This document shows, in pieces, positions 7,486 to 9,492 of a stretch of 13,197 nt of DNA. Origin of the DNA: Dehalococcoidia bacterium (GTDB lineage Bacteria > Chloroflexota > Dehalococcoidia > Dehalococcoidales > RBG-16-60-22); assembly GCA_013202615.1 (NCBI GenBank), contig JABMRL010000199.1, positions 1 to 13,197 on the forward strand, given 5' to 3'. How positions within the stretch are numbered: the first letter of the stretch is position 1; every line of letters begins with the position of its first letter. The notes under the pieces are model-generated. The model was not told the DNA's origin, did no database searches, and saw only the letters and a list, made by a program, of their open reading frames with translations. The translations under genes and the position numbers were made by a program.

Positions 7486-7517
7486 AAAAAAGAGAGGGCA
7501 CTTTTCAGCGCCCTCTC
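7486..7517 (-). terminator. Rho-independent terminator ending a leftward transcript
   Basis: On the - strand a perfect 8-bp stem, GAGAGGGC (7517-7510) with GCCCTCTC (7499-7492), closes a 10-base loop and is followed at once by six T residues (7491-7486). This is a textbook intrinsic terminator for transcription coming from the right. No conventional gene lies between it and the divergent promoter region, so it either ends a small RNA or is the terminator half of an attenuator before rpe. Confidence 0.8.
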
Positions 7518-7652
7518 CCATTTGCTTTTTGTCTCGAGCCCAACTCACTTCCGGTTATTACTGCCGGACCTGGTCTCTCATTACTGAGACTGACCCTTTT
7601 TTCTAACTCGAGTCGAGTTCGAGGTCCGTCCGCCCTGCCGTCAGGCAGGGCA

Positions 7653-7697
7653 CTACTGGTCCACCTGCCATACTCCGAAGAGCTCGTGAAGTCTCAC
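7653..7697 (-). CDS. 14-codon mini-ORF with a very strong ribosome binding site
   Basis: GTG start at 7697 and TAG at 7655-7653, encoding MRLHELFGVWQVDQ. The upstream AGGAGGTGA (7710-7702) matches the 16S anti-Shine-Dalgarno over nine bases with about four bases of spacing. An alternative ATG at 7703 in the same leader gives only two codons (ATG CTG TGA). The stop codon falls one base before the first hairpin of the downstream structured RNA, a leader-peptide arrangement. There is one Trp codon and no run of a single amino acid, so it does not look like a classical amino-acid attenuator. Confidence 0.4.
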   Translation of the reverse strand: MRLHELFGVWQVDQ

Positions 7698-7748
7698 AGC
7701 ATCACCTCCTCTAAGTGAAGATTCGGGAGCCAAGAACTTCCATATAAT

Positions 7749-7777
7749 ATTTCACCATAATTTGCCATTAATGTCAA
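7749..7777 (-). promoter_or_regulatory. Candidate leftward promoter for the structured RNA
   Basis: TTGACA on the - strand (7777-7772) lies in the left arm of the 15-bp inverted repeat. Seventeen bases further is TGAAAT (7754-7749), a four-of-six -10 match. The start would be near 7742, about 30 bases before the strong ribosome binding site of the mini-ORF. The -35 is perfect and the -10 weak, so this promoter may need an activator or be misplaced by a few bases; a nearby TATTAT lies at 22 bases spacing. Confidence 0.4.
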
Positions 7778-7805
7778 TAGATAACGGCCATATCTATTGA
7801 CATTA
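7769..7805. repeat. Perfect 15-bp inverted repeat, probable shared operator
   Basis: TAATGTCAATAGATA (7769-7783), a seven-base spacer ACGGCCA, then the exact reverse complement (7791-7805). Each arm contains TTGACA pointing outwards, so the -35 boxes of two divergent promoters sit inside the dyad. The position upstream of both -10 boxes means it acts in DNA rather than in RNA. The symmetry suggests a dimeric regulator controlling the transporter and the leftward RNA together. No candidate regulator gene is next to it. Confidence 0.7.
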
Positions 7806-7943: not shown

Positions 7944-7982
7944 ATGGCTATCTTCAGGAAAGGAGGTTATTTAGATGGCTGA
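7944..7982 (+). CDS. 12-codon leader ORF overlapping the transporter start
   Basis: ATG at 7944 preceded by GGAG (7931-7934), encoding MAIFRKGGYLDG, with a TGA at 7980-7982. The stop overlaps the beginning of the transporter gene (ATG 7975), and the ORF spans the transporter's own ribosome binding site (AGGAGGT, 7961-7967). Ribosomes reading it would unfold or occlude that site and terminate within reach of the transporter start, which suggests translational coupling. The frame stays open upstream to about 7797, but that longer version runs into the promoter and has no ribosome binding site. The peptide itself may have no function. Confidence 0.35.
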   Translation: MAIFRKGGYLDG

Positions 7983-9492
7983 AGTAACAAGGGAAAGATG
8001 GACCGGCCGGGCACCGTTTATCTTTGCGGCCATAGGTTCGGCAATCGGTCTGGGAAATGTCTGGCGCTTTCCTTATATGACCTACGAATATGGTGGTGGC
8101 ACCTTTTTAATTCCGTATATTATTGGCCTCATTGTTATGGGCATTCCCTGGATGATGATGGAATTTGGCATGGGCCGTTTGTTTCAGAGAAGCGCGCCCG
8201 GCGCATTCGAAGGTATCGGTAAAAAGTGGGAGTGGCTGGGCTGGTGGCCGGTCTGGGTTGCCTTCCTGATTGTGACTTACTATACGGTAATCATTGCCTG
8301 GTCGCTGCGTTATGCCATAAGCTCTGCAACTGTAGAATGGGGTATGGGGCAGGCTGGAGCTGAGGGCGCTGGCGATTTCTTTTTCGGCACCGTTTTACAA
8401 CTTTCAGATGGCCCAACTGCTCTCGGGCCTCCGGTATGGTTCATCCTTGGCTTGCTGGCATTTGTCTGGCTGGTCATTTTTCTCATCATGTTCCGGGGTG
8501 CCCGAATAATAGGCAAAGTTTCCGTTGTCCTGGTAATCGTGCCCTGGATATTACTGGTCGTCCTGTTTATTCGGGGAATTACCTTGCCGGGCGCACTGGA
8601 CGGACTGAATTTCTATCTCACTCCTGATTTCGCTGTTCTCGGTAGTATAGACGTCTGGTTTGCCGCCTTTAGCCAGATTGCCTTCACCTTATCTCTGGGT
8701 ATGGCGGGCATGGTGGCCTATGGCAGCTTCATCGCCAGGAAAGCCGATGTCAATAACAGTGCCATTATCACCTCATTTTCCGATGCCGCCACGGCTTTCT
8801 TCGCCGGTTTTGCCGTCTTCAGCACCGTTGGCTTCATCATGCAGGCGATGAACATCCCGATTGGCGACGTCAGTGCTTCGGGCTTGGGCCTGGCGTTTGT
8901 CACCTATCCGGTGGCCGTGTCAATGATGCCCGGAGGCAATGCGCTGGTGGGGATACTCTTCTTCCTCTGCTTGTTCTCCCTGGGCACGACGTCGGCATAC
9001 TTCCTCGCTTATGGAGGTGTCGCGGTACCGCTCATGGACAAATTTGGCTGGAGCCGGATAAAAGCTACCCTGATTGTCACCATCGTTGCCTTTCTGGTGG
9101 GCGTTCTTTACACCACCCAGGGCGGCCTGTACTGGCTGGACATGGTCGACCGCGCCGTGTGTTTCTATGGTCTGCTGATTACCGGTGCCCTGGCCTGTCT
9201 TGTTATCGGCTGGGTATACGGTCCTCGAAAGCTGAGAGAGCATAGCAACGAGACTTCAGATATCAAGATAGGCGCCTGGTGGGACTGGCTGATAAGACTG
9301 GTAGTACCGGGGGGACTGATATTTGTGGTGGTCGTCGGCGGCTTCATGAAGGACGGGAAAGAGCAGTATAGCGGCTATGAAATCGGAGCACTGGGTGGCT
9401 CGGACATCATATGGATTATACTCGGCGTGACCCTGATATTCAGCATCCTGCTGTCGTTTATCAAGACCAAGACTACCGGAGGGGGTGAATAG
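7975..9492 (+). CDS. Sodium-dependent transporter, NSS (SNF) family
   Basis: A 505-residue secondary transporter of the neurotransmitter:sodium symporter family (LeuT fold), importing amino acids or related compounds with Na+. About 12 membrane segments are visible, the length of LeuT. The first helix holds the family signature GSAIGLGNVWRFPY (21-34), including the Na1-binding Asn28 by analogy with LeuT Asn27; YGGGTFLIPY follows. The TM6 region is FSQIAFTLSLGMAGMVAYGS, with the unwound Ser-Leu-Gly segment. The ATG has an excellent ribosome binding site (AAAGGAGGT, seven-base spacing). It is followed after three bases by a MetS-like small protein, which points to the two-component MetP/MetS subgroup known for methionine and alanine uptake in Corynebacterium. 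The substrate here is not shown by the sequence. Confidence 0.92.
   Translation: MAEVTRERWTGRAPFIFAAIGSAIGLGNVWRFPYMTYEYGGGTFLIPYIIGLIVMGIPWMMMEFGMGRLFQRSAPGAFEGIGKKWEWLGWWPVWVAFLIVTYYTVIIAWSLRYAISSATVEWGMGQAGAEGAGDFFFGTVLQLSDGPTALGPPVWFILGLLAFVWLVIFLIMFRGARIIGKVSVVLVIVPWILLVVLFIRGITLPGALDGLNFYLTPDFAVLGSIDVWFAAFSQIAFTLSLGMAGMVAYGSFIARKADVNNSAIITSFSDAATAFFAGFAVFSTVGFIMQAMNIPIGDVSASGLGLAFVTYPVAVSMMPGGNALVGILFFLCLFSLGTTSAYFLAYGGVAVPLMDKFGWSRIKATLIVTIVAFLVGVLYTTQGGLYWLDMVDRAVCFYGLLITGALACLVIGWVYGPRKLREHSNETSDIKIGAWWDWLIRLVVPGGLIFVVVVGGFMKDGKEQYSGYEIGALGGSDIIWIILGVTLIFSILLSFIKTKTTGGGE

Follow-up and report, generated by a model that had tools for sequence, protein, structure and literature searches.

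Which kind of gene lies on the minus strand between rpe (7377-6730) and the gene of a sodium-dependent transporter (7975-9492, plus strand) of a Dehalococcoidia bacterium (Chloroflexota)? A sequence-only reading had suggested an RNA gene that is structured, so far undescribed and equipped with a 14-codon ORF and a terminator of its own. We followed this up in the window, i.e. the whole stretch of 13,197 nt that was analysed, and in related genomes. The host assembly of the window is 76.6% complete in 277 contigs, and both gene names were derived from reading the ORF translations.

The RNA unit spans 7777-7486 on the minus strand and consists, in this order, of a promoter, a leader, a Shine-Dalgarno sequence, the 14-codon ORF, a hairpin, a three-way junction and a terminator. 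A summary is given in Table 1. The coordinates bear out the proposed succession of nine-base Shine-Dalgarno, mini-ORF, hairpin directly after the stop (eight to nine pairs) and terminator, and add the unit's own promoter (TTGACA-17-TGAAAT), which had been overlooked.

Table 1. Features of the RNA unit, in order of transcription.
Feature	Position	Strand	Details
Promoter	7749..7777	-	-35 TTGACA 7777-7772, 17-nt spacer, -10 TGAAAT 7754-7749
Helix P0, 5' arm GAAGTT	7735..7740	-	partner GACTTC 7693-7688 (ORF codons 2-4)
Shine-Dalgarno GGAGGTGAT, nine-base	7701..7709	-	
Mini-ORF GTG..TAG, 14 codons, MRLHELFGVWQVDQ	7653..7697	-	conserved core GVWQVD 7676-7659
Hairpin H, arms TGCCCTGCC / GGCAGGGCG, eight to nine pairs	7631..7652	-	immediately 3' of stop codon
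P1, 5' arm of three-way junction	7609..7623	-	
P2, stem-loop with two-base purine bulge	7572..7595	-	
P3, stem-loop	7550..7568	-	
P1, 3' arm	7533..7547	-	
Intrinsic terminator, GAGAGGGCGC..GTGCCCTCTC plus six T	7486..7517	-	stem 7517-7492, T run 7491-7486

These signals recur in relatives. A promoter of the same form is found upstream in 49 of 68 homologous sites compared to 117 of 1140 random positions (10%). A terminator-like stem is present in 62 of the 68, by a lax scan that also finds one at 514 of 1140 random positions (45%) and begins so far downstream that it misses the nearby terminators of two loci, L194 and L195. The set of 68 sites, used for promoters, terminators and neighbours alike, mixes close and distant relatives that are not independent. 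The Shine-Dalgarno sequence in order-level relatives is mostly AGGAGGTG or GGGAGGTG.

A known RNA class was not recognised. Rfam 15 gave no hit in the window at the gathering score and three chance-level hits under permissive settings (E ≤ 10). In the loci of 37 relatives no family matched at the site, the only four hits (two tRNAs, cobalamin, c-di-AMP) being located elsewhere. A cobalamin riboswitch (L009:1835-1981) and a c-di-AMP riboswitch (L230:1844-1976) lie near two homologous loci. tmRNA, likewise a structured RNA with an internal short ORF, was considered and rejected: RF00023 is unmatched in the window, and the genome's own tmRNA is found at G000:C151:51-401. Moreover, unlike tmRNA, the RNA described here has a Shine-Dalgarno sequence and a start codon. 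6S RNA (RF00013) was detected neither in the window nor in any of 25 genomes (the own genome and 24 relatives), by a search whose control recovered it in only 5 of 14 known genomes; it may be missing there or too diverged.

In a literature text search that covered the main texts of papers, few of them from subscription journals, the string GVWQVD did not occur. For structured or dual-function RNAs of Chloroflexi/Chloroflexota and small RNAs of Dehalococcoides, no title or abstract start among the matches listed describes this RNA. The available parts of PMC2864571, PMC8632094 and PMC11109978 deal with other motifs (Chloroflexi-1, Downstream-peptide, odc1, uORF and sORF categories, rdhA motif). 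A prior description elsewhere is possible.

The distribution of the unit was determined with BLASTN and two models. BLASTN with the window unit yielded matches in 37 of 101 genomes, the own genome included (E ≤ 0.01). A covariance model built from 20 loci (R1) matched 54 of these 101 genomes (own and relatives), among them 24 of the 31 genomes of the window's own family; the 47 genomes with no R1 match include nearly complete ones. A second model restricted to ORF and hairpin (R2) gave matches, both at E ≤ 0.001, in 112 of the 343 genomes from the class and in 77 of the 400 from the phylum. Some of the loci used to build R2 come from this very sample of the phylum, thus those members match by construction. 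Sixty-two of the 77 phylum matches score at least 28 bits, compared to 27.7 bits for the best hit outside the phylum. One hit of 27.9 bits (G311, locus L194) is on the line and was counted with the other 15; it carries the ORF by eye, with the peptide GVLQVDS. No match was seen in any of the 11 nearly complete genomes listed for one family (f9, genera g24 and g63).

In two sets of genomes from outside the phylum no genuine copy was found. The first, of 12 genomes, gave one marginal fragment of 32 nt and the second, of 239 genomes, six weak R2 hits (≤ 27.7 bits), whereby one genome (G762) is present in both sets and the genomes come from one drawn phylum and a few others. By eye, four of the hits (L237, L238, L240 and L241) are located inside longer open frames of other genes and three (L236, L239 and L242) are hairpin fragments; none has a short GVWQVD ORF before a hairpin. 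These hits put the noise level of R2 at about 2.5% of genomes at E ≤ 0.001. A plasmid search gave no match to the unit. Judged from these searches, an RNA gene family of about 250 bases with a conserved predicted fold and a mini-peptide recurs across the Chloroflexota.

The fold energy of the minus strand is 4.7 standard deviations below dinucleotide shuffles (z -4.71; none of 200 as low). The plus strand is nearly equal (z -4.55). Hence the energy does not choose the strand; the ORF, the promoter and the T run do. Taken by itself, the window has a minimum-energy fold with H, P2 and the terminator as well as the competing stem of the sequence-only reading. This fold lacks P1 and P3, and in their place part of the ORF is paired to the 3' region. 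The three-way junction is a prediction from comparison and not from the single-sequence fold.

For this comparison we aligned 20 loci, those returned out of the 37 genomes with BLAST hits. In the alignment 88.0% of the cells are paired, compared to 80.8% in column shuffles, and 20 of 38 pairs show changes on both sides, a value reached by none of 500 shuffles. Likewise, 65 cells are changed on both sides where 21.9 are expected from shuffles (0/500 reach), and shifting the partner by one column lowers the pairing to ~44%. One of the five covariation measures is not above shuffles, namely the number of further pair types (44 compared to 43.5, 256/500 reach). All three stems of the junction contribute: P1 is paired in 89.3% of cells with changes on both sides in 7 of 15 pairs, P2 in 82.1% (6 of 9) and P3 in 84.3% (4 of 7). 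Hairpin H was evaluated in a larger alignment of 63 sequences, where 94.6% of the cells are paired and 7 of 8 pairs have changes on both sides. At this step 5 of the 73 R1 matches were omitted (both L114 matches, L091, L112 and one L117 copy), and from the remaining 68 another five were left out for long or odd hairpins (L092, L129, L109, L111 and one L117 copy).

The proposed junction is supported by covariation, and the expected compensatory changes in the stems are present. The GUAA tetraloop assigned to the junction did not stand in this form. In the window GUAA sits in a nine-base loop; by eye, about 12 of the 20 order-level relatives have a loop with GURA and the rest lack it, hence a GNRA tetraloop is not constant. 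Judged by eye, H and the terminator have GCCC/GGGC arms in common within the order, arms that are not constant in distant members, and no conserved antiterminator emerged.

Distant members were addressed by an alignment-free swap test, in which the segment after H was paired with the segment before the terminator and partners were exchanged between genomes. For 55 distant sites, 12 of which are short copies without P1, the sites' own pairing amounts to 1025 compared to a mean of 860, and none of 5000 swaps was as good. Row by row, a site's own partner ranks first for only 10 of the 55 distant sites and for 5 of 37 near ones; the signal is thus carried by the sum. By this test the predicted closing stem P1 is kept in distant members.

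The same kind of test was applied to the leader in 38 relatives. Its pairing with ORF codons 2-4 is sequence-specific, with 1 of 5000 shuffles reaching the own pairing. The resulting helix P0 would place the Shine-Dalgarno sequence and the start codon in a loop. Pairing of the leader with codons 6-9 failed the test (3038/5000 reach the own pairing), as did pairing with the region before the Shine-Dalgarno sequence (1115/5000). An a-b-a'-b' pseudoknot is, with the failure of these two pairings, unsupported.

The mini-ORF was examined by the codons of GVWQVD. From 111 hits (L114 dropped) 102 distinct codon windows were obtained; that of L214 is misplaced, and its peptide GVWIFPS was read by eye. 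Single-base codon differences are synonymous in 11926 and non-synonymous in 1260 cases (90.4% synonymous), counted over pairs of related sequences that are not independent events. Read in the other two frames, the same codon windows give 5.4% and 12.5%. Departures from the codon consensus are synonymous in 219 of 295 cases, where random placement yields 60 on average and 84 at most (2000 trials).

In their third positions the two Val codons take all four bases (entropies 1.97 and 1.88), and their first and second positions are nearly fixed (0.24-0.44). This pattern largely contradicts the explanation that the RNA alone matters and that a conserved RNA stretch contains the ORF by chance. The pairing of codons 2-4 with the leader, within the conserved region, would suit such a chance ORF, which we nevertheless regard as scarcely credible. 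As the sequence comparison shows, the GVWQVD core is kept by selection on the peptide.

N-terminal to the core the residues are kept less strictly. In the order M-R/K-L-H-x-L/I-F/Y is frequent, and the N-terminal part is very different in other classes, e.g. MYPMKKPHKVY or MNNRIRW. The stop codon, for which TGA, TAA and TAG all occur, follows 6 or 7 codons from the glycine in 65 of the 102 codon windows. The remaining 37 end later than the usual place before the hairpin: in 23 the stop is 11-13 codons from the glycine, within H, and in 14 the ORF continues beyond 13 codons.

Does the unit serve the gene behind it? Shine-Dalgarno sequence, short ORF, hairpins and terminator are the anatomy of a cis-acting leader-peptide attenuator, a device that would govern how often transcription passes the unit's own terminator into the gene behind. 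Moreover, rpe or an rpe-sized ORF comes next on the same strand in five loci of the same genus (the window and L039-L042). Against this, the 66 sites with a readable neighbour (out of 68) divide evenly: the next downstream ORF of 80 or more codons points the same way as the unit in 33 and is convergent in the other 33. Hence the unit is no leader for a fixed gene, and attenuation of such a gene was rejected on this orientation. Neighbour sizes and strands differ between families, the ORF has no run of codons for one amino acid, and rpe has a promoter-like site after the terminator (7444-7415, 11/12 matches). The sequence-only reading had anticipated both this promoter and the conclusion that the unit is not a simple leader. 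With further copies that do lie directly before genes (see below) taken into account, we consider a cis attenuator improbable. By its promoter, its terminator and the lack of a fixed neighbour the unit is a predicted free-standing transcription unit.

A mobile or selfish repeat might also carry its own promoter and terminator, and some genomes indeed harbour several copies (7 in G094, 6 in G580). A single R1 match is found in 41 of the 54 matching genomes, the place is the same within the genus, and the exact ORF-plus-hairpin pattern is unmatched in a viral contig collection. All three points speak against a mobile repeat and make it a very improbable explanation.

The region upstream of the unit has features of its own. 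At 7769-7805 there is a perfect inverted repeat of 15 bp (TAATGTCAATAGATA / TATCTATTGACATTA) that contains the -35 hexamers of two divergent promoters, leftward for the RNA gene and rightward for the NSS transporter. It looks like a candidate for a shared operator. L004, a locus of the same genus, has one half of the repeat only. In the window the NSS-family transporter (7975-9492) sits between the RNA gene and a gene of 262 aa. In three genomes (G001, G004 and G005) a gene of 262-263 aa, judged by size and place, is directly upstream of the RNA gene, so the transporter in the window may be an insertion; the contig of G003 ends too early for this comparison.

Variant copies show which parts can be lost or altered. 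Short copies with ORF and hairpin and, by eye, no junction domain are located just upstream of genes in six genomes. In five of these (G094, G046, G070, G033 and G098) the downstream products begin like signal or membrane peptides, and in G065 the gene behind has no such start. This position before genes is what a cis attenuator would lead one to expect. In a Pfam search two of nine downstream proteins resemble matrixin peptidases (one above and one below the Pfam cut-off) and one is DUF6345; six of the nine were unmatched, as was a tenth protein upstream of one copy. The ORF-plus-hairpin copies at L117, L119, L120 and L123-L130 mostly precede genes for secreted-looking proteins of unknown family, and some of them are, by the look of the sequence, beside response-regulator/histidine-kinase or sigma-factor-like genes.

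Paralogues in G580, G589 and G034 keep the RNA plan with an altered peptide end (QVTS, IFPS, LFPS, LEYQ..) or read through the hairpin, thus GVWQVD is not needed in every copy. In three G580 loci (L211, L212 and L215) a common ORF runs through the hairpin (GVWLEYQKALLMRQG.., GVWLEIQPALLMRQG.., GVWLKIQQALLMRQG..), hence the hairpin is also coding there. By eye, the unit is reduced to ORF, hairpin and terminator in L194 and L195. These variants point to ORF plus hairpin as the core and to a peptide end that is open to change.

The main rival of the reading we prefer, a translation-gated RNA, is that the peptide itself is the product. The unit would then be a tiny mRNA for a GVWQVD peptide with a trans-acting role at the ribosome, a protein or a membrane, and the 3' structure would protect or regulate the message. 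The core is selected on amino acids and not on bases, L194 and L195 by eye seemingly retain ORF, hairpin and terminator only, and consensus-like promoters and Shine-Dalgarno sequences would fit a high output. Yet covariation of the P1-closed domain is seen in close as well as distant members, beyond the needs of a plain 3' UTR, the fold is kept in paralogues with other peptide ends, and N-terminal residues are free to vary in distant members. On balance we rate the peptide as product unlikely, while giving it more than passing weight.

Known systems resemble the unit in part. The dual-function sRNAs SgrS/SgrT, SR1/SR1P and VcdRP are likewise free-standing RNAs that carry a promoter and a terminator of their own together with a short ORF under selection. 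Their peptides are, as far as is known, lineage-restricted, and they are longer (VcdP, according to its abstract, 29 aa) than the 14-codon ORF with a conserved hexapeptide near its end found here; the fold in our family is a conserved multi-branch domain. An ORF under amino-acid selection and, as far as sequence alone tells, a free-standing unit are common to both. A second function of the RNA would be base pairing or protein binding; what the comparison shows for the RNA is the conservation of its fold. At least 10.3% of sRNAs are estimated to carry a coding ORF (PMC5521070, available part).

Leader-peptide attenuators and stalling leaders (erm, ilvB, odc1, uORFC-6-1/hflX) are similar, in the parts of the sources available, by a short ORF, often with Shine-Dalgarno sequence and conserved peptide, beside regulatory hairpins. 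They differ by their downstream gene, which is not fixed for the unit described here. TnaC is a further stalling leader with a short ORF next to regulatory hairpins. The conserved peptide near the ORF end is compatible with a nascent-peptide arrest element.

The Downstream-peptide RNA yfr6 of cyanobacteria, as presented in the available part of PMC2864571, has a similar length (~250 nt) and a short ORF with synonymous change. Its conserved structure is the 5' UTR before the ORF, in contrast to a structure mostly after the ORF here, and it is represented in Rfam (RF01704), where our family has no match. The rdhA motif of Dehalococcoides is a candidate structured RNA of the same bacterial class, located, according to the available part of PMC11109978, just upstream of reductive dehalogenase genes; the family described here has no such fixed neighbour.

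By comparison, then, the locus is a conserved unit with predicted transcription signals, a conserved predicted fold (H and the P1-closed multi-branch domain) and an ORF selected for its peptide. The claim of an undescribed structured RNA gene with mini-ORF and terminator thus finds support in covariation, conservation from order to phylum and the lack of an Rfam match. We infer that transcription runs over the unit as given in Table 1, that the RNA is trans-acting, and that translation of the mini-ORF belongs to its way of working. Our preferred explanation is a free-standing, translation-gated (dual) RNA gene of a Chloroflexota family outside Rfam 15, neither purely non-coding nor a cis attenuator, to which we assign an even chance.

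RNA and peptide are well supported by these sequence comparisons, and the mechanism is what we infer from them. Ribosome loading at the strong Shine-Dalgarno sequence would have to open helix P0, formed by the leader and codons 2-4. Reading GVWQVD would bring the ribosome against hairpin H. A pause or a slow termination, driven by the nascent peptide, would then hold H open, shield the 5' half and determine how the 3' junction domain folds, how far it is exposed or how long it lasts. Such gating is hinted at most strongly by the position of the conserved peptide core, at the end of an ORF abutting a hairpin, in combination with the leader helix that initiation would have to open. Altogether this suggests a new kind of translated regulatory RNA.

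We put forward more tentatively that this is a phylum-wide class of translation-gated RNAs. In this case a ribosome held by GVWQVD at the hairpin would be the switch of an RNA acting in trans, paralogues with QVTS or IFPS/LFPS ends would respond to other signals, and the short copies upstream of genes for secreted proteins would represent cis versions of this switch.

An RNA gene that is kept over much of a phylum, usually in single copy, is likely important to the cell. Chloroflexota are abundant and mostly uncultured, and to our knowledge little is known about their RNA regulators. The GVWQVD residues, the stems and the boundaries of the unit are defined and provide exact targets for mutation. 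Annotation would gain a new RNA family and a 14-codon gene, which is below the usual length for gene finders. If true, translation gating of a free-standing RNA would represent a mode of regulation between cis-acting leader peptides and dual sRNAs with two functions.
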